Shown one piece after another: positions 8,347-46,515 of a DNA stretch of 64,000 nt. Source of the stretch: Isoetes taiwanensis (lineage: Eukaryota > Streptophyta > Lycopodiopsida > Isoetales > Isoetaceae); assembly GCA_021234155.1 (NCBI GenBank), contig JAJEKV010000059.1:7632779-7696778 (forward strand), written 5' to 3'. Made by a program: the position numbers and the translations under genes. How positions within the stretch are numbered: the first letter of the stretch is position 1; every line of letters starts with the position of its first letter. Below the pieces are notes generated by a model. That model did no database searches and had not been told where the DNA came from. It saw nothing but the letters and a program-made list of their open reading frames with translations.

Positions 8347-8360
8347 TGTTGAAGACTAGG

Positions 8361-10786
8361 TGGCATATTTGAGCCACCTTGGCATGTTGGAGCCTAGGTA
8401 CCATGTTTGAGCCACCTTAGCATGTTGGAGCCTAGGTGGCATGTTGGAGCCACCTTGGCATGTTGGACCCTAGGTGGCATGTTGGAGCCACCTTGGCATG
8501 TTGGAGCCCGCGTGACATGTTGGAGCCTAGGTGGCATGTTGGAGCCGGCGTGGCATGTTGGAGCCACCTTGGCATGTTTGAGCCTAGCTGGCGTGTTCGA
8601 GCCCGCGTGGCATGTTGGAGCCACCTTCGCATGTTTGAGCGTAGGTGGCATGTTAGAGCCCGCGTGGCATGTTTGAGCCACCTTGGCATGTTTGAGCCTA
8701 GGTGGCATGTTGGAGTCTAGGTGGCATGTTTGAGCCACCTTGGCAAGTTGGAGCCTAGGTGGCATGTTGGAGCCCGGCGTGGCATGTTTCAGCCACCTTG
8801 GCATGTTGAAGCCTAGGTGGCATGTTGGAGCATAGGTGGCATGTTTGAGCCACCTTGGCATGTGTGGAGCCTGCGTGGCATGTTGGAGCTACCTAGGTTG
8901 CATGTTGGAGCCTAGGTGGCATGTTGGAGCTCGCATGGCATGTTTGAGCCACCTTGGCATGTTGGAGCCTAGGTGGCATGTTAGAGCCCGCGTGGCATGT
9001 TTGAGCCACCTTGGCATGTTTTAGCCTAGGTGGCATGTTGGAGCCCAGGTGGCATGTTGGAGCCACCTTGGCATGTGAGCCACCTTGGCATGTTGGAGCT
9101 CGCGTGGCATGTTTGAGCTTGGTGGCATGTTTGAGCCAACTTAGCATGTTGGAGCCCACATGGCATGTTTGAGCCACCTTGGCATGTTGGAACTTGTGTG
9201 GCATGTTGAGCCCATGTGGCATGTTAGAGCCACCTTGGCATGTTTGCGCCACCTTGGCATGTTAGAGCCTAGGTGGCATGTTTGGCGACCTTGATGTTTG
9301 AGCCTAGGTGGCATGTTGGAGCCGCGTGGCATGTTTGAGCCCACGTGGCATGTTTGAGTTTAGGTGGCATGTTGGAGCCTAGGTGGCATGTTTGAACCAC
9401 CTTGCATGTTGGAGCCTAGATGGCATGTTGGAACCATGGGGGCATGTTTGAGCCACCTTGGCATGTTGGAGCCTAGGTGGCATGTTGGAGTCCACGTGGC
9501 ATGTTTGAGCTACCTTGGCATGTTTGAGCCACCTTGGCCTGCTGGAGCCTATTTGGCATGGAGCCCATGTGGCATGTTTGAGCCAACTTGGCATGTTTGA
9601 GCCTAGGTGGCATGTTGGAGCCCACGTGGCATGTTAGATACCGTGTGGCATGTTGGAGCTACCTTGGCATGTTGGAGCCACCTTGGTGGCATGTTTGAGC
9701 CTAGGTGGCATGTTGGAGCCGGCGCATGTTGGAGCCCACGCGGCATGTTTGAGCCACCTTGGCATGTTAGAGCCTAGTTGGCATGTTGGAGCCCGCATGG
9801 CATGTTTGAGCCTAGGTAGCATGTTGGAGCCTAGGTGGCATGTTGAAGCCCGTGGCATGTTGGAGCCTAGTTGGCATGTTTGAGCCACCATGGCATGTTT
9901 GAGCCTAGGTCGCATGTTCGAGCCACCTTGGCATGTTTGAGCCCAGGTGGCATGTTTGAGCCACCTTGCCATGTTGGAGCCTAGGTGACATGTCGGAGCC
10001 CGCATGGCATGTTTCATCCACCTTGCCATGTTGGATCCTAGTGGCATGTTTGAGGCGCCTTGGCATGTTGGAGCCAGCGTAGCATGTTTGACCCACCTTG
10101 GCATATTGGAGCCAGCGTGGCATGTTTGAGCCAGCTTGGTATATTGGAGCCTTGGTGGCATGTTTGAGCCACCTTGGCATGTTGGAGGCCACATGGCATG
10201 TTTGAGACACCTTGTCATGTTGGAGCCCACATGGCATGTTTGAGCCACCTTGTCATGTTTGAGCCTATGTGGCATGTTGGAGCCCACGTGGCATGTTTGA
10301 GCCACCTTGGCATGTTTGCACCACCTTGGCATGTTTGAGCCTAGGTGGCATGTTTGAGCCACCTTGGCATGTTGGAGCCTAGGTGGCTTGTTGTGAGCCA
10401 CCTTGGCATGTTTGAGCCTAGGTGGCATCTGAAGCCCGCGTGGCATGTTTGAGCCTAGGTGGCATGTTTGAGTTTAGGTGGCACGTTGGAGCCTAGGTGG
10501 CATGTTTGAACCATCTTGCATGTTGGAGTCTAGGTGGCATGTTGGAACCACGTGACATGTTTGAGCCACCTTGCCATGTTTGAGCCACCTTGGCATGTTG
10601 GAGCCTAGGTGGCATGTTGGAGCCCACGTCGCATGTTTGAGCCACCTTGGCAAGTTGGAGCCTAGGTGTCATGTTGGAGCCTATGTGACATGTTTGAGCT
10701 ACCTTGGCATGTTTGAGCCTAAGTGGCCTGTTGGAGCCACCTTGGCATTTTTGAGCCTAGGTGGCATGTTTGAGCCAAGTGGACAG
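8361..10786. repeat. 19-bp minisatellite, ~125 units
   Basis: The unit is TGGCATGTT-(G/T)-GAGCC followed by four variable bases: mostly TAGG, ACCT, CGCG or CACG. One 19-bp step per unit over about 2.4 kb gives roughly 125 copies, with a few deletions. GCCACCT in one unit type is the reverse complement of AGGTGGC formed at TAGG units, so neighbouring units can pair. The array leaves long open frames on both strands (up to 270 codons on the minus strand) only because the unit lacks stops in several frames. These are not believed to be genes. Confidence 0.97.
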
Positions 10787-13337: not shown

Positions 13338-15425
13338 ATGGAGGGCCTTCATTGGAATTCTCTAACTAATCAGAACTGCATCCTCTTGAAGCTTGATTTC
13401 TCCAAAGCCTTTGACACAGTGAGGTGGGATTTTCTGGAGTTTGCTTTGACTAAGCTTGGTTTCTCTGATAAAATTATAAAGTTGATCCTTGGCCTCAATC
13501 AAAGATCTCAGTCTGCTATCTTAATTAATGGCTCTCCTACCAAATTCTTCCATCTCAGCCGAGGAGTCAGGCAAGGTTGCCCCCTTGCCCCATATTTATT
13601 CTTGGCTGTGGCTCAAATGCTCACATCTGCCATTCATTTCCATCAAACTGTCAATGATCTCCATGGCCTAAATCTGCCTGATAATTCCTCTCTTACCATC
13701 TCACAATATGCAGATGATACTTTCACTTTTCTCAAAAATGATCCTGACAATATTGAGTTCTTCTTCAAAATTATAGAGTCCTTTAGTGCTGCCTCGGGTG
13801 TCCATTTGAATAAGGAGAAATGTGTTATCATTGGCGACATCTCAGTTGACAATATCTTGGGCATTAAATGTGTACATTCCAATGACTCTACCAAGCTGCT
13901 AGGTATGCCTTTGTCCTCTAATCCCTCTATTAAAGGCCTCTGGTCCCCAATTATCTCCAGGATAAAGAAGAAATTATCAAACTATGGCAATTGTTTATCT
14001 TTAGCTGGCAGAACCATTATTGCCAACTCTGTCATAGCCAGCTCCCACATTTACTTCTCTTCAGCCCTTCTTGCCCCGAAATCTATCTATCAGCAGCTTG
14101 AGAGAATCATTAGAAACTTTATTTGGGGTAAGCATCATATGGTCAATTGGAAATCTATTGCCAGAGGTAAATATCAAGGGGGTCTTGGATGTAAGAATCT
14201 TCTATTTCAAGGCTATGCCCTTGCTGGTAAATATGTTTGGAGATCCCTCTTTCATGGTAATAATCCTGCTTCTATCTTTATCAAATATTGGCTCTCTTGT
14301 AGTCATATCAAAGGTCATCCTTCTATTTTGCATCAATTACCTTATTCTGCCTTTTTCAATCTGAAATCTGGTGCAAACACATCTTCCCTTATGAGAAATC
14401 TTATTCTTGCATGGAATTTCTCTCACAAAGCTTTCAATCATGTGGAGCTTCAGAAGTGTAACCTAAGCTCATCTATTTTCTGGAATCCTCTTCTATCCAA
14501 TGACAATTCTACACCTCTAGCTGTTATTCATCCCAGGATATATAAAAAATGGAGCACTCATAACATCTTGACCTTAGGTGATCTGAGACAGGGTAATAGG
14601 TGGATTACTTGGACTGCCTTCAGGCATAGAATAAGGGGGACCTCAACAGACAGGACTCTTTTTAAGTGCATTATCCAATCATTCAACTGTCATAATATTG
14701 AAGCAAATATAAATTCCAATATTGATTGGACTCTGAACAATAAAGGCATTTACAAAGTCTCATTGATTTATAAATTCTTGAACAAGCCTACTTCAGCATC
14801 CAAAGCTAAGAATTTCTGGAATATCTCTGAGGAATCTGAGTCTAAACTTTTCAAAAGTGTATGGAATTCTTACCTCACCCCGAAGATAAATTATTTTATT
14901 TGGCTTTTAGCTAATGGTAGTGTTCCAAATCTTATCTCATTTGCCAAACATCAAGTCAGGAATGCTGATCCAATTGATACTCATTGCCCTCTGCATTGTA
15001 ATGAATTGGAAGATATGAATCATATTTTTAACTGCCCCAAGCTGGATTCTTTATGGAATTGGTTTGAATACCATTTTGCTATTCCCAAGCCCACCTCCCT
15101 CTTAAATTTTCTCTCAAATGATGATGCTTTCTTAAACTCTTTATCCTTTACTGCTTTATGGAACATATGGAAACACAGAAATAGATGTTTTCATGGCAAG
15201 CATTCTGTCTCATGCACGTGGATTAAATTGCATATTATTTATGACCTTGAACTAGCAGCTTCATGCAATAAAAACAGCAAAGACAATCATTTTGAAGACA
15301 GATGGAACAACTTGGGAGTATTTTATGGTTCATTTAATCTCTTTAGATTGCATTGTCATGAAGAATTTTCTAACTCAGATTTATTATCTATCAGACTATA
15401 TCAACAACCTGAGGGCAGATCTTAG
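13338..15425 (+). CDS. LINE ORF2 fragment: reverse transcriptase + zf-RVT
   Basis: The frame is open back to 13161 and reads LNDWRPISLTNSSYKI from about 13180, so the first ATG at 13338 is internal to the domain rather than a true start. Counting from that Met, FSKAFD with the first catalytic Asp (LDF) is at residues 20-26, GVRQGCPLAPYLF at about 76-88, and YADD at 124-127. All catalytic residues are intact. Thumb-like region follows (LLGMPLSS, GRTIIANSV, NFIWG). Near residues 550-567, C-P-L-H-C-(x7)-H-(x3)-C forms a zf-RVT zinc-binding motif, as in plant L1 ORF2. The endonuclease domain is missing. The product would copy LINE RNA at the nick site, but this truncated copy should be non-autonomous. 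There are no stops or frameshifts in 695 codons. Confidence 0.93.
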   Translation: MEGLHWNSLTNQNCILLKLDFSKAFDTVRWDFLEFALTKLGFSDKIIKLILGLNQRSQSAILINGSPTKFFHLSRGVRQGCPLAPYLFLAVAQMLTSAIHFHQTVNDLHGLNLPDNSSLTISQYADDTFTFLKNDPDNIEFFFKIIESFSAASGVHLNKEKCVIIGDISVDNILGIKCVHSNDSTKLLGMPLSSNPSIKGLWSPIISRIKKKLSNYGNCLSLAGRTIIANSVIASSHIYFSSALLAPKSIYQQLERIIRNFIWGKHHMVNWKSIARGKYQGGLGCKNLLFQGYALAGKYVWRSLFHGNNPASIFIKYWLSCSHIKGHPSILHQLPYSAFFNLKSGANTSSLMRNLILAWNFSHKAFNHVELQKCNLSSSIFWNPLLSNDNSTPLAVIHPRIYKKWSTHNILTLGDLRQGNRWITWTAFRHRIRGTSTDRTLFKCIIQSFNCHNIEANINSNIDWTLNNKGIYKVSLIYKFLNKPTSASKAKNFWNISEESESKLFKSVWNSYLTPKINYFIWLLANGSVPNLISFAKHQVRNADPIDTHCPLHCNELEDMNHIFNCPKLDSLWNWFEYHFAIPKPTSLLNFLSNDDAFLNSLSFTALWNIWKHRNRCFHGKHSVSCTWIKLHIIYDLELAASCNKNSKDNHFEDRWNNLGVFYGSFNLFRLHCHEEFSNSDLLSIRLYQQPEGRS

Positions 15426-35175: not shown

Positions 35176-36108
35176 AAATTGGGCGCCAATTTTTGCCCTC
35201 GTAGTCGTCTGAACAAAGTTTAATACTAGCCTCCAAAGGAAATAGGGCGGCCGCCCAATTTCGTTAGACTTGCGAGAAAATACAAATACAGACTGTCACA
35301 AATATAATTAATCCAACTTGAAAACTATGCGACCAAGTGTGGATGCTACCTATAACGATCATTTCAGGATATAAATTCTTATGAACTTATGAAATACATC
35401 TCATAGATTGTAATTATTGGTGATTTTGTCAATCTCATAAAAGCGTCGCTCGGAACCCAAACAATATGGATAGTAACATGGTACTCGCCGGGGGAGTCTT
35501 TCGGTCGACCAGTAGCTATACCATGCAGCCAGGTATCAAGGGTGATCCCTTTGATAATGCATGCATGAAGGTCGTCGAAAGTCATGAGGCAAGTGAGGGT
35601 GTCCAAATGCTCTGGAGGTGGAGGCAATTGGGACCTCTGAAGAACTCTAGCAGGGCGGCGAGACATTGCAAAGGGCTGTGCTATGCAATCGAATGCGGCA
35701 ATACTTATAGCCAAGTAATTATTGATGAAGCACTGTAGTAACATTATTGGTACATATTTGGTAGTAAGTATATCCAATAATTATTGTGTATAATACCAAC
35801 AATAATTTTGGTTGGTATAAATATATACTTCATGTTCAACTGCTCGCACTGATAGCCTTAAGGTTCAAATTGGGCGCCCGCCCAATTTCCATGAGGGAAC
35901 TCTTCTAGTGCAGGGAAATTTTCGACATGTATTTATTTTCTTGGTCAATGTACATAAGTTTTTTTCAGTCAATTTCATTATAAAAACCTATATAGTGAGT
36001 AACAGTGGTGCGAAATTGGGCGCCCGCCCAATTTGCACCCCCGTGCTCACTCTAAACACATATACCGCGAGTGTCGGAGATCTTGCGAAGCAATTAGGCA
36101 GCCCAATT
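35176..36108. repeat. Dispersed single copies of the AAATTGGGCG palindrome
   Basis: Copies of AAATTGGGCG...CGCCCAATTT occur at 35867-35888 and 36013-36034 in identical 22-bp form, with variants at 35176-35196, 35240-35261 and near 36091-36108. The flanking DNA is unrelated between copies. The same core makes up three tandem arrays further right. Confidence 0.85.
35379..35777 (-). CDS. Hypothetical frame, 132 codons
   Basis: A minus-strand frame lies between two palindrome copies, with segments CLMTFDDLHACIIKGITLDT and GEYHVTIHIVWVPSDAFMRL. Amino-acid composition is protein-like. No family is recognised. It may be part of the minus-strand transposon ORFs that follow at 36.1-40.4 kb. Confidence 0.35.
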   Translation of the reverse strand: MDILTTKYVPIMLLQCFINNYLAISIAAFDCIAQPFAMSRRPARVLQRSQLPPPPEHLDTLTCLMTFDDLHACIIKGITLDTWLHGIATGRPKDSPGEYHVTIHIVWVPSDAFMRLTKSPIITIYEMYFISS

Positions 36109-36150
36109 TGCACCCCCCTAAAAGGTGCTAACAAAACATACTCCTTGTGC

Positions 36151-36877
36151 TCAAGGGTCCACCCCTTCGGTGGCGTTGTTGTGTGGCAGCTTAATCTTTC
36201 TTCTCCCCACTTTGTGCTTGCTTAAGGAGTTCCATCGGCGTGGAATTCTTGATTGGTTAAGCGTAAGCGTCGAGGGAGCATCCTTCTCAATTTCCATTTC
36301 AACATCATCCTCCTTCTCATTTTCCTCGTCCTCCTGCTCAACTTCCTCCTCCTCCTTCTCAACTTCCTCGTCCTCCTTCTCAACTTCCTCGTCCTCCTTC
36401 TCAACTTCCTTCTCCTTTTCGACATCCTTTTCTTGCTCTGATGGTAGCGGGTCCACAGGTTGAGCTTCTTGTGTCTCCAAGACAACAGAAGGTTCTCCAT
36501 CCTTGAGGAGTAGCTGCGTAAACTTCGAGCTACCCTCGATCACATCTTGGGTGCACACTAATGTAGTGCCCGCCAAAGCATTAATGTTATCCTTCTTCTT
36601 TCTAAAGAAAGACGTCCTTTGCTCCAAAACACGCAACCTTTCTCAAATGGTGCGTGGCGAGAATCTTTAGACAACCCGGGAGAGTGGATTGCAACTCTTG
36701 CACCCGTTTGTGCGGGAATGGACAAGGAGGTGGAGGAGTGGACACTACAGCACTTGCCTTGGAGCCGCTTGTTTTCTTTTTACCCTCTGCTATTTTTTGC
36801 AATGCACGGGCTCTCGATTTCTTCTCATCCAGCATTACTTCGAGTTGATCAAAAATCTGAGTAAGTTTAAGCTGCAT
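36151..36877 (-). CDS. Acidic coiled-coil protein fragment, transposon ORF?
   Basis: 36877-36602 reads FDQLEVMLDEKKSRARALQK, a Pro-rich stretch (STPPPPCPFPHKRVQ), and LATHHLRKVA. A shift to the next frame then gives RVLEQRTSFFRKKKDN, VCTQDVIEGSSKFTQ, and a Glu-rich repeat. At DNA level the acidic part is a 24-bp tandem (about 36330-36412). The two frames fit end to end, so one frameshift breaks a longer protein. The product would be a nuclear-style acidic protein. No family recognised; it is read as one of several minus-strand ORFs of a large transposon. Confidence 0.45.
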
Positions 36878-37289: not shown

Positions 37290-38290
37290 TCAGTCATTCA
37301 TTGCGGGGCAGTTGCGGTCTCTGGCCACATACATTACAAAGCGAGAGTCTGCAGCTTTCATGAACACGAGAGGAAGGGTTTCTCTTTTTAGGATCATTAT
37401 GCGCTCCCACCCATACCACGACTCCCCGTCTATAGTCTTCATGGCGGACAAGCATTCACTCAAGCGATCTGGGTGATAAAGATCGTGATCCAATATAATT
37501 GCTGGTCCGTAAGTAAGCACCTTGATCTGGTCCAAGAACTTCCGGTAATCCTCCATGCTCCATTTCTTGATATTTACTGAAATCACATCCAACAAACCGG
37601 AAGCGGTATTGACCACATCAATGACATTCCCGGAGGGGGACGACGGTAGCATTTGAATGATTTTGATCCCTCTTCCACTTGTCCCCGCGGATACTCATTA
37701 ACCTTCGGGATAAGAGCCTTTGGAAGGTTAAGCTTTTACGCCTCCTTGCGGCTATCAACCCAATCACCTACCTTTGTTGGCGAACATCAACATCAAATTC
37801 TCCGTGAATATAGGATGAATTTTCCTCAAATCGGTCATGTTGTCAACATGAAGCTTTTCACATCTTTGAGATATTTAAGGAGTGCATGCTCGGCGGTTGC
37901 CAATCTTCTTGATTTCGCTTTGCCGCGATTTTCATGACCGCCTTCGATTATAATTTTTGGTGGTCTTTATATGCGTGGTGGGCTGTCATAATCTCTGTCA
38001 AAAGTCTTTGCGGATCCATTGGATGCATGGACTTTAAAGGTCGGCACTTGTTATTAAGTGAACATTCTTAGGCGGTCCTTTACCACTATCGTCTCACCCA
38101 ATTCATCTTTTAGCTGGTCTTCATAGAATAAGCGAGCCACTTGTAGGCACATATTCCAAGTTTAGGTCATCCGGTACCGCGAAGTAATCGTAGTCTCGCA
38201 TGCTAAGCTTCTTCAATGTACGCCCTTCGCTATAGCGAGCCAATCTACTCGCACATTTGAAATATCTGATCATAAAAATTTAGCAATGCA
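37290..38290 (-). pseudogene. Transposon-like ORF fragments, minus strand
   Basis: 37652-37290 reads MEDYRKFLDQIKVLTYGPAI, then ESWYGWERIMILKRETLPLV and ADSRFVMYVARDRNCPAMND. Near 38275-38110 another frame reads RLARYSEGRTLKKLSMRDYD and YDYFAVPDDLNLEY. The composition is protein-like but no conserved domain is recognised, and frames are interrupted. These pieces lie between palindrome arrays and probably derive from one element with 36151-36877 and 38783-40410. Confidence 0.4.
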
Positions 38291-38329
38291 CAAGCTAACA
38301 TGCAATGCACATGAGGGCCCGGCGCAAAT

Positions 38330-38762
38330 TGGAAGCCCTTAATTTCATAGGCGAGGCTATGCAATTTAACATGCTATATTCACATGGGGCCAACCCAAAT
38401 TGAGGCCCGCCCAATTTCATAGACAAGGAGATGCAATTTGACATGCTATATTCACATGGGGCCAGCAAAATTGAAACCAGCCCAATTTCATAGACAAGGA
38501 GATGCAATTTGACATGCTATATTCACATAGGGCCAACCCAAATTGAAACCAAATTTCATACCCCCAAATTGCGGATGCAATTTAATATGTGTCATGTAGT
38601 ATCACGGCATCTGAAATGGGCCGCCCCAATTTCAAACCCAGCGGATGCAATTTAACATGTGTCATGTAGTATCACGGCATCTGAAATTGGGCAGCCCAAT
38701 TTCATAGCCAAACATTTGCCGAAAACATGGGAGGCCTCCCAAATTGGGCCCCCCAATTTGAT
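38330..38762. repeat. Palindrome array I (~78-bp then ~70-bp units)
   Basis: Three units of about 78 bp share GAGATGCAATTTGACATGCT and TATTCACATGGGGCC and each carry a degenerate CCAAATTG...CCCAATTT core. Two units of about 70 bp with CATGTAGTATCACGGCATCT follow, ending in AAATTGGGC-GCCCAATTT forms. The core resembles the palindrome of arrays II and III while the spacer is different. Confidence 0.85.
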
Positions 38763-38782: not shown

Positions 38783-39231
38783 AAAAAAAGCGGTTTGCAT
38801 CCACAATTAGAAATGACTTCTTGAATATCGCTATCTTGGGATAGTCCACGCTTTCCTTTCTTGACTTTCCATAGAATGCCCATTGATTCCCCTAAAATTT
38901 CTCTTGTATTTGTTGAGTAGACATCGATGGATAGTATTCTTGGTGATATCGTTGCTCTCTGGCTGACCTTCACATATTCGATGGGGGTGAGGTTCCCCCG
39001 CCCGACCTGACATTTTCTTTTGGCGTGAAAGAAAAGATAAGATCTTTCGGATGAGCCCTTTCTGGCCCATTCCAACGCTGGTTGACAAGAATTTGGGCAA
39101 GCTGCGGTAGTGTGATTGCCATTTACAATCCGAGTTCTGCATTGTCCAAATCGGTGGCCTTCTTCCACCCGATTACCGTCCCGATGGCGGATCAAAGGGT
39201 ACAACATCCGCTGGGGTGGATGCATCTGCAC
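38783..39231 (-). CDS. Hypothetical transposon frame
   Basis: The minus-strand frame opens at 39231 and reads RHRDGNRVEEGHRFGQCRTR, TTAACPNSCQPALEWARKGS, and LTPIEYVKVSQRATISPRIL. It runs leftward into palindrome array I, where the reading is meaningless. It has one C-x3-C pair but no recognised family. The frame in 39142-38831 is an overlapping alternative. Confidence 0.35.
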
Positions 39232-39960
39232 ATTAATAAATGATTCATAGAGTGTATCAACATGTTGCGGGTGATGACCTGCGGGTCATATTTGCGGTGC
39301 TTGATGCATTTTGAAGATATCCACCTCTATTTGAATTCAACACCAAGAGGATAGATCCTTTCCACATGCTTAATGTTGATCAATGCGGTTTGGGACAGCT
39401 CACGTTTGCTTTCTTGAGTCAGCGCCCGCCCGGATGTCGAGCACTTCACAATTTGCACATCGTCTTCACGTGAGCACATGTCGGTCCCACTCCCCCATCG
39501 GATGCACGATGTTGATGGTGGAGTAGGGTCTCTTCTTTTCTTAGGCGAGGAAGCTATTGCCTCGTCGCCGACTTAAGCTTTGTTCCTTGCTTTTTACGGT
39601 GGGGACTTTGTTCGGATACCTCCTGCGATCTAATGCTAACGTCCGGACTCGTGATGTTCTTCCCATACCACCAAGAATCGGGTTTTGGAGTTGATGTTTA
39701 CGATCTTTTCTTCTTAGGAACCTTTTCGATGACACGGCCAGTGGGGTTTCTCTGTCCCCTTGATTCCGTCACCCTTCTTAGGAACTCCATAGCGTGATCT
39801 CAACCCGCGCCGTGTCATAGACCTTTGGTTGGCTCTTCCCATGATACTCGTGTAAAGGGCCTTTGATCGATTTTGTTTGTGATCGGTATGCAGCATGTCT
39901 AAGCGTATTAAATCCATCTATAATATCTCCCCGTTTGGTGAGTCCGGATCTCTCAAGGCT

Positions 39961-40410
39961 TTACGTGAAGAAGGCGGGACCCGACCCTTGGCGACACGAA
40001 TGTGAAGCCTCGGTGATGCTTGCATGCATTAGCTGAGGATTGTAAGTCCCAAAGGGTAACCTGTATCCTTGAAATGACTTATCAAGCACGTCCTCTACGA
40101 CAACCTCTAACTCGTTGGCCATCTCAGTGCTCACGGACATGTCGATTGCTATACCTGCATTCTGTGTCCTCCGAGTCCCGGGCTCAGCAAAGTACAGGCA
40201 CAGATCCTTGAGGTGATTCGTGCTAGACCCAGGGTGGATATTGCCTACCTCTATGCACCAAGTAAATTTATCTGCTACGGCAGTCATTAGTTCCGGGACG
40301 ACTTCAATACCATTGAATTCCCTCCTCTGCTTCCTTTGCTTTGCGGCAAATGCCCATTATAGCGGAGGGCGGATCACGGTGCACGTCGCGGTTTGTTTAG
40401 TTCTTGCCAT
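39961..40410 (-). pseudogene. ORF beginning with the exact H3 N-tail (MARTKQTA), unknown body
   Basis: An ATG at 40410-40408 opens MARTKQTATCTVIRPPL, then a TAA at 40359-40357, and the same frame continues WAFAAKQRKQRREFNGIEVV, LMTAVADKFTWCIEVGNIHP, and VSTEMANELEVVVEDVLDKS, ending at 39961. The first eight residues equal the histone H3 N-terminus, which carries the K4 methylation site. Nothing after residue 8 resembles H3, so this is not a normal histone gene. The body is unrecognised and has a basic AAKQRKQRRE stretch. Without the in-frame stop it would be a 149-codon frame. It sits 110 bp from palindrome array II. It could be a captured H3 5' end, mimicry, or chance. Confidence 0.5.
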
Positions 40411-40520
40411 GGGTGCTGCATAACATCAATCATGAATCCCATTAGTGGTGTGTCAAACAATTAGAAGAGCAATTTGCCAGAGCAGAGGAGATTACAAAAC
40501 TAACCAAAGATTGCAAGAGG

Positions 40521-40985
40521 TCCCAAATTGGGCCCCCCAATTTGCGAATGAAGGAGATTACAAGAAGAGAGAAGCCCGAGGGTCCCAAATTGGGCGCCCG
40601 CCCAATTTGCCAGAGCAGAGGAGGTTACAGGAAGAGAGAGGCCAAAGGGTCCCAAATTGGGCGCCCGCCCAATTTGCCAGAGCAGAGGGTCCCAAATTGG
40701 GCGCCCAATTTGCCCAATTCTGGGTGCGAGGAGATTACAAGAAGAGAAAAAGCAGGGTCCCAAATTGGGCTCCCAATTTGCCGCAGAGGAGGTTACAAGA
40801 AGAGAGAGGCTGAGGGTCCCAAATTGGGCGCCTTAATTTGCCCGAGAGCGAGGAGGTTACAAGAAGAGAGAGGCAGAGGGTCCCAAATTGGGCGCCCGCC
40901 CAATTTACATGAGGTTACCTAGAAGAGAGACCTCCAAATGACTTACGAAAGCAAGAGCAGACAAATGGGCGCCCGCCCAATTTGC
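40521..40985. repeat. Palindrome array II (~60-80-bp units)
   Basis: Eight palindromes (starts near 40525, 40587, 40654, 40694, 40762, 40821, 40885 and 40961) each read AAATTGGGC-GCCCAATTT with small variations. The spacer contains GAGGAG(A/G)TTACAAGAAGAG and GGGTCCC. Plus-strand frames across it (122-126 codons) are repeat artefacts. A ninth half-copy is at 41093. Confidence 0.93.
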
Positions 40986-41199
40986 CCCAGCTTTGGGAGG
41001 TTAGAAAGCAGTAAGAAGGTTTAGAGCTTTGATAGATTTGGGCTACTCTCACCGACGGTTGATCCAAGGACTTATGAAGCCAAGAGGAGACAAATTGGGC
41101 CCATACGTGGTAATTAGAATGATCCAACGGGCCAAAGGGTTATTGGGTGCGGAGGAGACAACTTCGAGGTACAAAGTGACAACCAAGCGAGAGAGAGAG

Positions 41200-42250
41200 C
41201 GGCCCATATGATTGGGTGGACTCCTTAAGGCGATGGCTTATCTCTGCACTAATGTAAAGAACGAAGTTGAAGAAAAGAGCGTTACCTTTTCCTCCCTTCA
41301 CGGGTCGACTTTCCATGAAAGCAGTGGCACCTGGAAGCTAGCAGTCAGCGCTTGGAAGAAATCACTTTGAACCACGACAGCGCTGGTAGCTTGGATAAGC
41401 GCTTGGAAGAAATCGGTGTGAACACGATAGGCAAAATATGCTACGTGTCGGTAACCGAAGAAATCGATATGAACAGGCTCAAAGAATGCCTGAATGCGAA
41501 AAGGAATGGGCGGTTAGGTTTAACTGATGAGTGACAAGTGGCGACCATGCAAAAGAGGACCCTAAAAATAGGCGTTTTAAGTAAATATGGACCAAAGGAC
41601 GAGAACAATAAAAATAGACAGACTTTGCAATAAATGTGCGAAAAAGTAAAAGCGCTTTTTAAATTGACATACCGTCACGTATTGAAATTTAAATTTTAAA
41701 TTTTGAATTCTCCACGGCCTTGTAATTTCAAATTTATAGTGCGGTCCTTTGGTACATTTTCAATTTAAAATTAGGGCCCCACCAATATTTGATTTACGTC
41801 CACTTTGCATTTGAATTTGAATTTGAATATATATTGAACTATGGTGGGAGAATTGATTTTTGAAATACTCTCGAGGAAGCGGGCGCGGCTAAAGCCATTC
41901 GTTCTCTCACATTCTTGGGCAACAACTTCTTGGATGGATGGCGTCGCGATTCACCAAAGGTAGGTTTCTTTTGGTATATCGTTCATTCTTTGCTGGATTG
42001 GTATAGAACATTATTGATGATAAGATTAAACGGATAAAAAAGATAATTTTGAGAGATGTATGTTCGGTCCCCTCTATATTCTATCTCGGGTAGCATGGAA
42101 GCAGGGCCAAATGGGTGCCAAATGGGCGGATATACCTCCTGAATATGTATCATTCCTGGGTGCCTGCCTTAGAAAGAGTGGCTATGTTTCATTTATGTAT
42201 AGCACCTCAAGATTACTAGACCGGGGGAGCCCGTTTTTAGCGACTAAAGA
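41200..42250. other. AT-rich spacer between arrays II and III
   Basis: A small duplication of AGCGCTTGGAAGAAATC is at 41347-41370 and 41397-41420. The stretch 41690-41840 is built of AAATTT-type motifs. A 79-codon frame at 42060-42299 is unassigned and runs into the array. Confidence 0.4.
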
Positions 42251-42254
42251 AGCA

Positions 42255-42745
42255 CCTTGGGGGAGGAAATTGGGCGGATGTTCAATTTCAACTCCTTAAA
42301 GTTACTAGAGCAGGGAGCAAATTGGGCGCTCGCCCAATTTCAGCAGCTAAGAAACACTGCAACAGGGAGGAAATTGGGCGGCTGCCCAATTTCAACTCCT
42401 CAAAGTTACTATACCAGGGAGCAAATTGGGCGCTCGCCCAATTTCAGCAGCTAAAACACTGCAACAGGGTGGAAATAGGGCGGGTGCCCAATTTCAACTC
42501 CTCAAAGTTACTATACCAGGGAGCAAATTGGGCGCTCGCCCAATTTCAGCAAAAAAAACATCAAGAGGGGTGGAAATTGGGCGGCTGCCCAATTTCAACT
42601 TCTCGAAGTTACTAGACCAGGGAGCAAATTGGGCGCTCGCCCAATTTGAGCAGCAACAGGGAGGAAATAGGGCGGCTGCCCAATTTCACCTTTCCAATTT
42701 ACGTAACAACAGGGAGAAAATTGGGCGCCCGCCCAATTTCACCAT
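42255..42745. repeat. Palindrome array III (~104-bp units, two palindromes each)
   Basis: Each unit holds one GGAAATTGGGCGGCTGCCCA-type palindrome and one GCAAATTGGGCGCTCGCCCA-type palindrome, spaced by CAACTCCTCAAAGTTACTA and CAGCAGCTAA...CAACAGGG. Unit starts are near 42260, 42364, 42468, 42570 and 42660. The last palindrome, near 42717-42740, has the exact 22-bp form of the single copies at 35.9 and 36.0 kb. Confidence 0.94.
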
Positions 42746-42792
42746 CTAAGGAGCATGTGCTGTAACTTTGCTCTTGAACTGATTCATTTTTT

Positions 42793-43011
42793 TTGGTGCA
42801 GGAGGTGTACCTATTCAAAGATGGTCGGGCAGTTGGCAAAGGGACCATGGGAGCTAGGGAGAGATGCCACTTTAAAGACATCCCAGATGGACTTGTGAGT
42901 GTGGGTGTTCTAGCTGTCTTTGAGGGGCATCATGTTCTCTCTTGGCCTACTCGGCAACCAAGTACCTTAGGTGAGGCATTGGGTTCCTTCATTCTCACGG
43001 AGGGAAAGTGA
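42793..43011 (+). CDS. DUF8039-like transposon domain fragment
   Basis: The frame reads QEVYLFKDGRAVGKGTMGAR, HFKDIPDGLVSVGVLAVFEG and HVLSWPTRQPSTLGEALGSF. Plant transposon proteins with DUF8039 have a similar order: KDG--VG-G-V, P----VVV, and a TVG-AVG-FV-WP end. The fragment begins just after array III and is followed by frames without recognised content. It is a probable accessory ORF of a CACTA-type or related element. There is no true start, since a CAG acceptor-like sequence precedes it. Confidence 0.45.
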   Translation: MVQEVYLFKDGRAVGKGTMGARERCHFKDIPDGLVSVGVLAVFEGHHVLSWPTRQPSTLGEALGSFILTEGK

Positions 43012-43448
43012 TGTTCATGACTCGATGTAGTGGGCGTGCCCGTCGGCATCAAAAAGACAATGAGGGGGAAGCAACAGAGACACCATGTCGCTAACTAGGT
43101 ACACACCTCTTGGAGACCGATTTGTGAAATTTATCACTCTTGTCTTTGCCATCCCTGCCCGAAGGGATTTATATCCTTCACTTGGTCCGGGCGATGCGAT
43201 ATGTGACCCGGTTCTTGGGTATGAAGACCGTAGGGGTGTCTGATGCTTGAAGGCTTTCCCCCCGAAGAGAGGTGAACTTCCGGTGTCCGGCATGTTTGAC
43301 AATACCTAAAAGCGGGCATGCTTTTGAGGTGGAATAATGATCTAGTTAGGGTTTGTGGGGTGAAGGTGTCGGAAATTTTAAGTGCAAACGCCGATGGAAC
43401 AACATGATCTGACGTCGAGCCAGGCAGCCTTCGGAGATTGAAGCATCC

Positions 43449-45953
43449 ATGCGATCTGAGAAGCGTAAATACACCTTCCATTCTCGTCGGCCAAAGAAAG
43501 CATCAAAGCCTCAAAAGATAGATCGGCTAACAACCAATGAAGCCATCTTGAGGTATAGGAAGACCATGTGTTGCAAAAAAGAGAGATGTTGTGAGAAATT
43601 CACTAGGGATCAAGCTATAAACATGCGAAAAGGATTTCTTTGCCATGAAATCGAAAGTGACAGGGACCACTTTTGTGTATGACATGTTAGGCAACAATAT
43701 GAAGGGTAGAAGGGTTCATCGACTAGTCTTGCAAGGCATCGATTAATACGTGAGAGGGCTTGGTACCTTGGTCTTGGGATTTCAAAGTCGGGGTATCCGA
43801 AGTGGAAGGCATTCCGCTCCCGGTGCTTTCGAAAGGCCGAGCATGGCAATTCGTGCACTATGAAAACGCGTCGCCACCTTGGCCTCGAGGAGGCTTTTTC
43901 CATGTTCGTGAAGGAAAATTGTGAGTCTTTACCTCACCGTAGCGGGGAGGAATGATGATGGGATTCGAAAAACGTGAGGAAGTTGCACCGCTATGTTTAC
44001 GAAGACATGCATTCTCGAAGAGGTCAACGCCAAGTGATGGCTCTCCACAGGCAAGAAGGTATCTCCGGCCGAGGATTTCATAGGGCGTGGAGGCGTAGCT
44101 TCAAGGGCGTCGGTATTGCTAAGAAGAATGCATTCTCCAAGTGTGACACTTGCGGGGTTATCCGCCTGAAGCTGTTGAAGACCAAGGATGAGGCTAGAGG
44201 AGAATATTGCATGATCGAGAGAAGGGCACATAGACTAGAGCAGCAATCATGTCGCACCCCATCTTGGTCATGGAGATGTTATCCCCATAGGCATCCTCGA
44301 GACTTTGTATGTATCATTCCGACAAAATGGATCGGAGCAAAGACTATGATTCCAAAGTTGTTCGATTAGTGAAGTCCCTTTGGAGACTAGATAAGCTAAA
44401 GACTTCATTGACAGTGCACTTACCCACGGCCATGGGAGAGGGTGCTATGGAAATTTTGCTTTGGATCGTGTGGTCGACGACTCCAACTTCCATGTAGGTT
44501 CTTTGAATAGTATTTTGAAAAGGTTGGAGATGCCTAATGAGTTTGCAGGAGGCCATCTTGCACTGTCTGATCCATCAGTCCCAGATTGGGCGAGGGCCTT
44601 ACGTGACACCACTGCGCTAGCGTCCAAGTTGTCGCTGTCTGGGAAGAGCATCTCCGTTGCCATCCCTCAACCTTGAGGGACCCTCATTGAAGCGTCTCCC
44701 TCGCAAATTGCTGTTGCAACTAGACAATGCATCCGGACAAAACAAAATAGGTATGTATTCTCGTATCTTTCATACCTTGTATATCCGGGTGTTTTCGAGG
44801 AGATTGAGTTAGGGTTTATGATGCCCGGCCATACACATGACGATATAGATGCTATGTTTGGAAATTTTTCATCTACCTTGAAGAAAGCCGAAGTGCTAAC
44901 CATGCCCGAGTTGTTGTATGAATTTCATACGTGCAATCTCAACACGCCAGTGCCATATGTTGTTCATAAGGTTCCGTGTTTGGAAAGGTTTCATAGAAGG
45001 GTATATCCCCGATGGGGAAGATAGATTGACAGTCACAGCGAGCCTCGACCTTTTTGTTTGCTATGAATGGTGGCCCGGCCCGTCATGTACCATAAGGCTC
45101 GTCCCTACGTTAGTGGATTGGCTACTGCGGGTGGAATAAGAATGTGGAAAGAAGGAGAGGATGGAAAACCCCTAATGCCATCCGGAAATCCGAAGATGCT
45201 AGCACCTAAGAGCTTCGGTGAAAGACATTGGTCAGCTCTCAAACAAGGTATCCATAAGCATATCCTCCATTGGGTCGCATGCTCGACGAACAAGAAGGGC
45301 ACACCGAGAGGCGGCCAAATATACAACACAATTTTACTGGCGACAATTGAATATTGGATGGGACTCTTGGAGCATCCGGTAACATCACCAACGTGGAAGG
45401 TCCTTACGAGGACTTTTGGTAAAAGCGCACTAGGCAAGATAGACTTGACGTGCACGATGTGGTGGCGTGGTGGGAGCCAATTGCAACCATCACTCTTGCT
45501 TATGTTGGTCCATTGAAGGATAAGCCCGTACGAAATTCAATCCTTTCAAGGATTTGAAGAAGGGCATGTTTGTATTGGCGCTACGATGATGTCTTGTGCC
45601 CAACATGGCTAGGGTATGCTGCTGAAGAACCCCAAATGGATGATAAGAAAGACAACTTCGAGACTATCCAGTCACTTGGTGGGAGCTCGTCCTCAAGTAG
45701 GGAACCGGTGTTCCCGACCAACTATGTCAATTGTTGGAAGAAGAGATGGAGGCCGACCACCGCTAGTGACCGCATTGAGATAGAGAGTATCGACTACGCT
45801 TTGGAGTCCTTGAATAAGAAGAAGCTACCAAACACCGCCAAGATTCCCACACTTGTTGCGTATATATGCGGCACTTGCCTCGGGATGTATGTTAGTGTTA
45901 TCGAAGCCTCTTTTAATAAAAAGTCCACAATTCAAGGTATTGTCCATATTTAA
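43449..45953 (+). pseudogene. DUF7869-type transposase-like protein, frameshifted
   Basis: 43449-43682 reads KTMCCKKERCCEKFTRDQAI, a Cys-rich N-terminal motif. 43974-44300 contains FSKCDTCGVIRLKLLKTKDE. 44309-44450 reads DKMDRSKDYDSKVV and TSLTVHLPTAMGEG. Near 44700-44745 a frame reads LLLQLDNASGQNK, and after a one-base shift NRYVFSYLSYLVYPGVFEEI and GHTHDDIDAMFGNFSSTLKK. 45067-45516 and 45570-45953 continue. The ordered motifs FxKCxxC, DxMDxSK, LDN----NKNRY and GHTH-DID are those of proteins annotated with DUF7869, a transposase-like domain widespread in animals, algae and plants. At least three frame changes make it inactive. Confidence 0.75.
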
Positions 45954-45984: not shown

Positions 45985-46515
45985 TGACTTTACCTCGTAG
46001 GCGACGTGACGTCGCATACGATGCTAAGTCAACTGTCAATAACCACGTCACGTGGCCGTTGGCGCCACGTAAACTCAAAGTGCTGACACATGGAGCGTTC
46101 GAAATTGCGCCGTGATGTCGTTGAAAGGCCAGACGATTGTGACAAATGCAGCCTCGTCATAACGACGCGGTGGCAGACGTCACCTGTGTCACGTCATGCA
46201 TCGTCTATGTGACGTATGCCGTGACACATGCGACGTCTGCCACTGCGTCGCTATGACGTCACACATGCGACATCTACCACCGCGTCGCTATGACGAGGCC
46301 GCATTTGTCATGTCAGTTGTTCTTTCAACAACATCGTGTCGCAAATGATGTCATGTCGCAATACCAAATGCTCCACGTCATGTCGACATCATGTCATACG
46401 TCGTCTGTGTCACGTCATGCTTAACGTCACATGCGACGTCTAAGCGATATCTTGTCACCACTGCGACGTTATCGACGACGTCTGGCGTGACCTGGTCACG
46501 TCATATATGATGTTG
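45985..46515. repeat. Inverted-repeat block rich in ACGTCA/TGACGT
   Basis: About 530 bp is packed with CGTCATGACG-type words. A left segment (about 46140-46200: TGACAAATGCAGCCTCGTCA and GACGCGGTGGCAGA) is matched inverted by a right segment (about 46255-46318: its complement reads TGACAAATGCGGCCTCGTCA). The block can therefore form a long hairpin with further nested pairs. It lies directly after the last frame of the DUF7869-like relic and may be that element's terminal region or an independent MITE. TGACG/ACGTCA words also match bZIP (TGA, ABF) binding cores, but their density is explained by the repeat. Confidence 0.8.

Follow-up and report, generated by a model that had tools for sequence, protein, structure and literature searches.

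The window, by which we mean the whole 64,000-nucleotide stretch of the Isoetes taiwanensis genome that was analyzed, contains a decayed element in which two genes are arranged back to back (Table 1). The plus-strand gene encodes a DUF7869 domain, which we take to be that of a transposase, and runs away from a minus-strand gene, referred to here as the accessory gene; arrays of AAATTGGGCGCCCGCCCAATTT-type palindromes lie between the two. The first eight codons of the accessory gene, ATG GCA AGA ACT AAA CAA ACC GCG, read on the minus strand from position 40410, spell MARTKQTA, the start of the histone H3 tail, just as an earlier note on this DNA had claimed.

Table 1. Features of the element in the window, with positions counted from the first nucleotide of the window
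Feature	Position	Strand	Basis
MARTKQTA codons (H3 residues 1-7 behind Met)	40387..40410	-	sequence
In-frame TAA at codon 18, breaking the window copy	40357..40359	-	sequence
Accessory gene, remnant of its first coding exon, with stops and frame shifts	38839..40410	-	end set by peptide GKRGLS
Putative splice acceptor (AG), with its end 5 nt ahead of the ATG	40411..40417	-	read by eye
AAATTGGGCGCCCGCCCAATTT-type palindrome array immediately 5' of the accessory gene	40470..40991	.	
Second palindrome array, immediately 5' of the plus-strand gene	42243..42749	.	
Tandem repeats bearing palindromes, downstream of exon 1, perhaps intronic	38315..38760	.	
Fourth palindrome cluster	35176..36112	.	
Decayed divergent DUF7869 gene, presumed transposase gene	42803..45950	+	extent inferred from open frames
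DUF7869 domain (PF25273, E 9.5e-23)	44677..45021	+	Pfam
Accessory gene, possible later exon	37290..37694	-	coding-like codon periodicity, without family match
Possible later exon for a glutamate-rich tract	36151..36642	-	

The window copy of the accessory gene is broken. The earlier note had read the in-frame TAA at codon 18 correctly, but the 149 codons that it assigned to a single frame are not an open reading frame: stops bound a frame of 22 codons (40425-40360), which is followed by a separate frame of 131 codons, and an intact frame in the window is thereby ruled out. A stop-free stretch of that length is in itself unremarkable, an equally long one being present in 141 of 200 shuffles of the 13 kb. 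The window copy matches H3 residues 1-7 only. Its anchored extension past codon 8 scored 0, no extension was found when frameshifts were allowed, and the best local similarity to H3 beyond the tail was unremarkable (it was reached in 17 of 100 shuffles). The statement that likeness to H3 ends at codon 8 therefore holds for this copy but not for the family, as R8, which is lost here, is present in less decayed copies.

A resemblance by chance has to be considered, given that many frames, famous peptides, and windows were inspected. The composition-based expectation for the MARTKQTA peptide is about 2e-6 per window, a figure that applies to this one peptide only, when many other famous peptides would also have caught notice. 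The ATG at 40410 is unique among the 2,986 ATGs of the window in that more than three leading H3 residues, Met counted, are matched behind it. With the persistence of the tail across copies that are 53-67% identical, and a large genome-wide excess of such starts over a reversed-pattern control (both described below), the probability left to chance is negligible, and the earlier judgement that a chance match was unlikely stands.

The palindrome array reported beside the frame is real. The window holds 50 half sites of the AAATTGGGCGCCCGCCCAATTT type versus 2.85 expected in shuffles, and 46 of these fall within 35-43 kb. The arrangement recurs in the close copies of the accessory gene: in all 38 copies the 1 kb upstream of the ATG holds four or more half sites (mean 12.3), and the 1.5 kb downstream holds none. 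Another copy, composed of loci L069 and L037, is collinear with the window over 44360-42263 (84%), 42072-41234 (68%), and 40906-38325 (75%), and so the divergent layout belongs to the element. The far end of that copy is unlike the window's, and the DUF7869 domain itself was seen in the window only, L037 having the neighboring exon and not the domain. A ParB-like reading of the motif FWIVNGNHTTAVAQ was dropped, as no search gave it support.

In all six frames of 34-47 kb DUF7869 was the sole Pfam match at E values up to 0.05, and hence no Histone match, and no histone fold core, was found there; tblastn with H3 gave nothing better than E 1.4, and nothing reached the gathering score in Rfam. 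A search of the open PMC literature on the word DUF7869 found no paper. Codon periodicity in the window element is weak evidence of coding (14 of 500 shuffles for the 131-codon frame, 4 of 500 for the frame at 37293, and 127 of 500 for the DUF7869 frame). No convincing pair of terminal inverted repeats or CACTA ends was found in the window element. The transposon setting proposed in the earlier note draws its support from copy number and from the DUF7869 gene. Just past the DUF7869 gene, at 46140-46425, are GC-rich nested inverted repeats (58-nt arms, 88% complementary), possibly the element's end or another element. Elsewhere the window contains a long, degenerate 19-nt tandem array of about 128 copies (8360-10782) and an open 695-codon frame for a LINE-type reverse transcriptase with zf-RVT (13338-15425).

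We searched the genome assembly (1,658,258,908 bases in 1,110 contigs) with a 450-base query covering the start of the accessory gene. The best 40 of 242 candidates were scored, and all of them, the window copy included, were matches, with identities of 83-100%. Judged from these sequences, the accessory gene belongs to a large DNA-transposon-like family in I. taiwanensis. The ATG is at the same place in 38 of the 40 scored copies (L024 is without its 5' end, and L042 is shifted), and 37 of those 38 start with MARTKQ; L039 has H at residue 8. Copies that keep the frame read MARTKQTAR-(V/A)PG-(A/S)GPPLAQAFAAAKEA, and open frames of 590 (L037), 549 (L019), 480 (L011), 431, and 409 codons were found, whereas most of the 38 run into a stop within the first 100 codons. 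Several long open frames thus begin MARTKQTAR, without the stop of the window copy. Because in-frame copies elsewhere read this peptide in long frames, we regard the window copy as a decayed member of the family and its MARTKQTA start as the family's start. As for paralogs without the peptide, which the earlier note had named as evidence against its reading, MARTKQ is kept in 37 of the 40 close copies, while among 20 divergent ones eight carry one or two changes in the tail and three have lost the start.

In copies such as L009, L010, L014, L026, and L029, the breaks cluster just after codon 6 and consist of varied small changes. Breaks in codons 7-24 reflect either a decay hot spot or assembly error. 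Since the assembly is described as having been built from Nanopore reads with Illumina polishing (PMC8566536), some frame breaks in repeats could be errors of this kind.

In L019 and L037 the first exon of the accessory gene comprises 529 codons up to the peptide GKRGLS, and a comparable layout of putative splice sites was read by eye in other subfamilies. The L019 and L037 proteins had no Pfam domain and no Histone match, the accessory protein had no credible match in the PDB (best E 1), and two AlphaFold models of it had mean pLDDT values of 34.9 and 30.1, below usable confidence. No relatives were found in the viral contigs scanned. By reading of the sequences, the middle of the protein contains basic, NLS-like stretches.

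To reach further into the family we used the 529-residue first exon of L019 as a protein query, which gave at least 94 matches (82 of 4,716 candidates were scored). Among the matches listed, full-length ones reach down to about 53% identity, and full-length, stop-free relatives were found at 57-67%. The starts of 20 divergent copies, 53-67% identical, were read. Seventeen have an in-frame ATG in place; nine of these begin with exactly MARTKQTAR, spelled with different codons, four have one change in the tail, and four have two. The start was lost in the remaining three: L092 and L110 are shifted, and L091 reads MALNKAVLSG and yet has a stop-free frame of 605 codons. The sequence that follows the tail differs by subfamily (VPGPAPRFAEA, (L/M)PGYGPGIPQA, or IPGHGPRIAHA).

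Pooling 17 divergent starts, 15 close in-frame starts, and that of L076 (a locus from the genome-wide search described below) gave 33 starts, which were chosen for an in-frame ATG, L091, L092, and L110 being outside the count as their starts are lost or shifted. In these 33, which share ancestry and so are not independent counts, A1 was kept in 33, R2 in 32, T3 in 31, K4 in 33, Q5 in 28, T6 in 32, A7 in 32, and R8 in 30, and the whole tail was exact in 24. At position 9, where H3 has lysine, every one of the 33 has V, L, M, I, or A instead; in most starts PG follows the hydrophobic residue, P usually replacing S10. The ratio pN/pS was 0.088 in codons 2-9, where pS was 0.641, versus 0.425 in codons 10-20. 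Taken alone, the 18 divergent starts gave 0.167 in the tail and 0.470 after it. A smaller count of 28 starts, which left out the in-frame L020, L023, L025, L039, and L045 that the larger one contains, gave 0.093 and 0.421. Finally, seven stop-free matches among those listed cover at least residues 13-527, and the starts of six were read: the tail is exact in L019, L037, and L096, has one change in L094 and two in L098, and is lost in L091, K4 being kept (by alignment) in five of the six.

Because the start is kept in most in-frame copies, those that have diverged by about half among them, and with silent codon changes, we consider it very probable that the start of the accessory protein is a selected mimic of the H3 tail. 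The changed or lost tails of L091, L094, and L098 lowered our estimate for a mimic and raised that for a passive relic, that is, a functionless peptide left from a captured H3 5' end or taken from the genome's other H3-like elements. Capture of H3 by transposons is on record in fungi (PMC6710886), an AG just before the ATG is shared with seven of the 15 canonical H3 genes of the genome (tgcagct-ATG), and L091 is long and stop-free without a tail. The low pN/pS of the tail, also in the divergent starts alone and in the face of a high pS, argues against a relic, as does the lack of consistent H3 similarity on either side of the tail. Past residue 9 the element protein has no consistent likeness to host H3, nor have the 100 bases upstream of the ATG in the four copies tested, where the similarity to host H3 genes compared with 200 shuffles as 4 (L011), 52 (L037), 179 (L019), and 175 (L016). 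Only L011 stands out, and this inconsistency argues against capture of upstream sequence from host H3 genes. A relic of either sort we hold to be distinctly improbable. Of the two sources that the earlier note had offered, capture or mimicry, a mimic under selection is therefore favored as to function, while the origin is not settled: capture of a short H3 5' end, transfer from H3-like elements, and convergence all remain candidates.

The nucleotides before the start have a pattern of their own. GCAG or GTAG was seen by eye within 15 nt before the ATG in 17 of 17 divergent in-frame starts, and GCAG precedes it in 23 of 38 close copies, being variable there. This is consistent with a predicted intron in the 5' untranslated region.

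What might the tail do? It follows the Met immediately, as it must if it is to form a free N-terminus, and Ala at position 2 permits removal of the initiator Met. Once the Met was removed, the protein would expose a free N-terminal A1-R2-T3-K4-Q5-T6-A7-R8, which the readers, writers, and erasers of H3K4 in the host may fail to tell from H3. The strict retention of A1 and K4 is a better fit to N-terminal readers or K4-site enzymes than to enzymes of K9. The rest of the protein would bind DNA of the element itself, with the palindromes as the most likely target, and the tail, which could not be methylated at position 9, would recruit activating H3K4 factors to the element's own promoters; alternatively, it may be used to occupy host silencing factors there. 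The accessory protein would then be an anti-silencing protein, similar to VANC or TnpA in its working, with a histone tail as bait. Self-targeted anti-silencing through docking of proteins that bind the H3K4 tail is put forward tentatively, as a mechanism that we would sooner doubt than assert. The best explanation overall, and one toward which we lean, is the broader one of a tail mimic on a transposon accessory protein with an anti-silencing role.

The substitution at position 9 bears on a different use of the tail, as a decoy substrate in which T6-A7-R8 and the hydrophobic residue in place of K9 would jam H3K9 methyltransferases of the SUVH4/KYP type in the manner of K-to-M histones. The absence of lysine from all 33 starts is as a decoy would have it, and there are precedents: the geminivirus protein TrAP reportedly inhibits KYP, and EZHIP is said to work through a K27M-like mimic. 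However, the best-kept residues are A1 and K4, which K9 enzymes would not require, P usually stands where S10 would be, and V inhibits less well than M. We think a decoy unlikely; the loss of K9 as such is compatible both with avoidance of silencing marks and with a pseudo-substrate. Less likely again is a role of the N-terminus in nuclear import, or in deposition, through histone carriers (an importin or a chaperone) in place of K4 reading. The tail region of H3 does serve as an import signal (Kap123), but the accessory protein already has NLS-like stretches of its own, and strict retention of A1 and K4 should be unnecessary for import.

A mimic of the H3 tail suggests that the family imitates host chromatin, and it is not alone in carrying such a start. 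ATG-led MARTKQTA followed by R or S occurs 1,888 times in the genome (904 + 984), versus none (0 + 0) for the reversed pattern and about 0.01 expected from degeneracy alone. At 20 places with distinct spellings, taken from 100 listed, 19 read MARTKQTAR and one MARTKQTAS. None of the 20 continues as H3, the frame stops before 100 codons in ten, and by eye they form several unrelated groups, L076 resembling the family studied here.

Other multi-copy elements (L083 with L090, L086 with L111, and L074) combine MARTKQTARK with a charged linker and a divergent H3 histone fold. In L083 the tail, the linker, and an H3 core that matches Pfam Histone (2.4e-21) and is identical to host H3 at 48 of 99 residues share a 388-codon frame; L086 has a different linker, and its H3 core (53% over 47 residues) is in another frame, some 1.1 kb further downstream. 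Used as a query, the L083 protein gave at least 111 matches (106 of 35,087 candidates were scored), 29 of the 111 listed extending stop-free from residue 1 to residue 387 or beyond, and L074 (C4) covers residues 1-388 of L083 with one stop. When H3 itself was the query, the best 150 of 9,022 candidates were scored and all were matches: the 15 H3 genes, at 96-98%, and 135 others at 71-86% identity, which are mostly core only and many of which lie in long frames. Loci L064-L068 represent this other abundant class with an H3 core of 71-86% identity; L068 has a 567-codon frame without a tail start and with the H3 core at its end (Histone, 8.1e-41), and a second open reading frame follows.

It is conceivable, and in our view only a little short of an even prospect, that mobile elements in this genome make a general strategy of imitating H3, with at least two unrelated kinds and thousands of tails in competition with host H3. 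One kind would be the DUF7869 elements, whose accessory protein bears a bare H3 tail minus K9. The other would be elements with varied linkers that encode long H3-like histones, composed of the tail, a linker of some 300 residues, and an H3 core.

Viruses and a few host proteins are known to mimic histones. The mimics NS1, ORF8, EZHIP, and G9a resemble the present case in that a short H3-like stretch on a nonhistone protein engages chromatin enzymes. To our knowledge, that stretch is internal or C-terminal in the known viral and host mimics, whereas the present one corresponds to residues 1-8, forms the true N-terminus, and is carried by a mobile element. No transposon protein starting with the H3 tail was found among the matches listed in a search of the open PMC literature.

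Among transposons, the nearest parallels are VANDAL and fungal hAT elements. In Arabidopsis, VANC is encoded by a VANDAL element and binds dense motifs in that element's noncoding DNA (PMC5735166); likewise, the family in the window has an accessory protein and dense arrays of short motifs, mainly in noncoding DNA. The passages on VANC in that report describe no histone-like peptide, and no Pfam domain links the accessory protein to VANC. The hAT elements of Dothideomycete fungi, which captured and multiplied histone H3, provide a precedent for H3 sequence that is carried and multiplied by a DNA transposon; as described in the account of those elements, the captured sequence is an intronless H3 coding sequence, which RIP has inactivated in all but the original gene (PMC6710886). 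In contrast, the elements described here carry no more of H3 than its first eight residues, which appear to be maintained by selection and which head an unrelated protein.

If our reading is true, these elements would resist silencing through a docking tail of their own on which K9 methylation is impossible. The family would also amount to a natural mutational scan of the H3 tail, replicated many times over, in which A1 and K4 appear to matter most. It raises the question of how the plant distinguishes its nucleosomes from what may be thousands of counterfeit tails.
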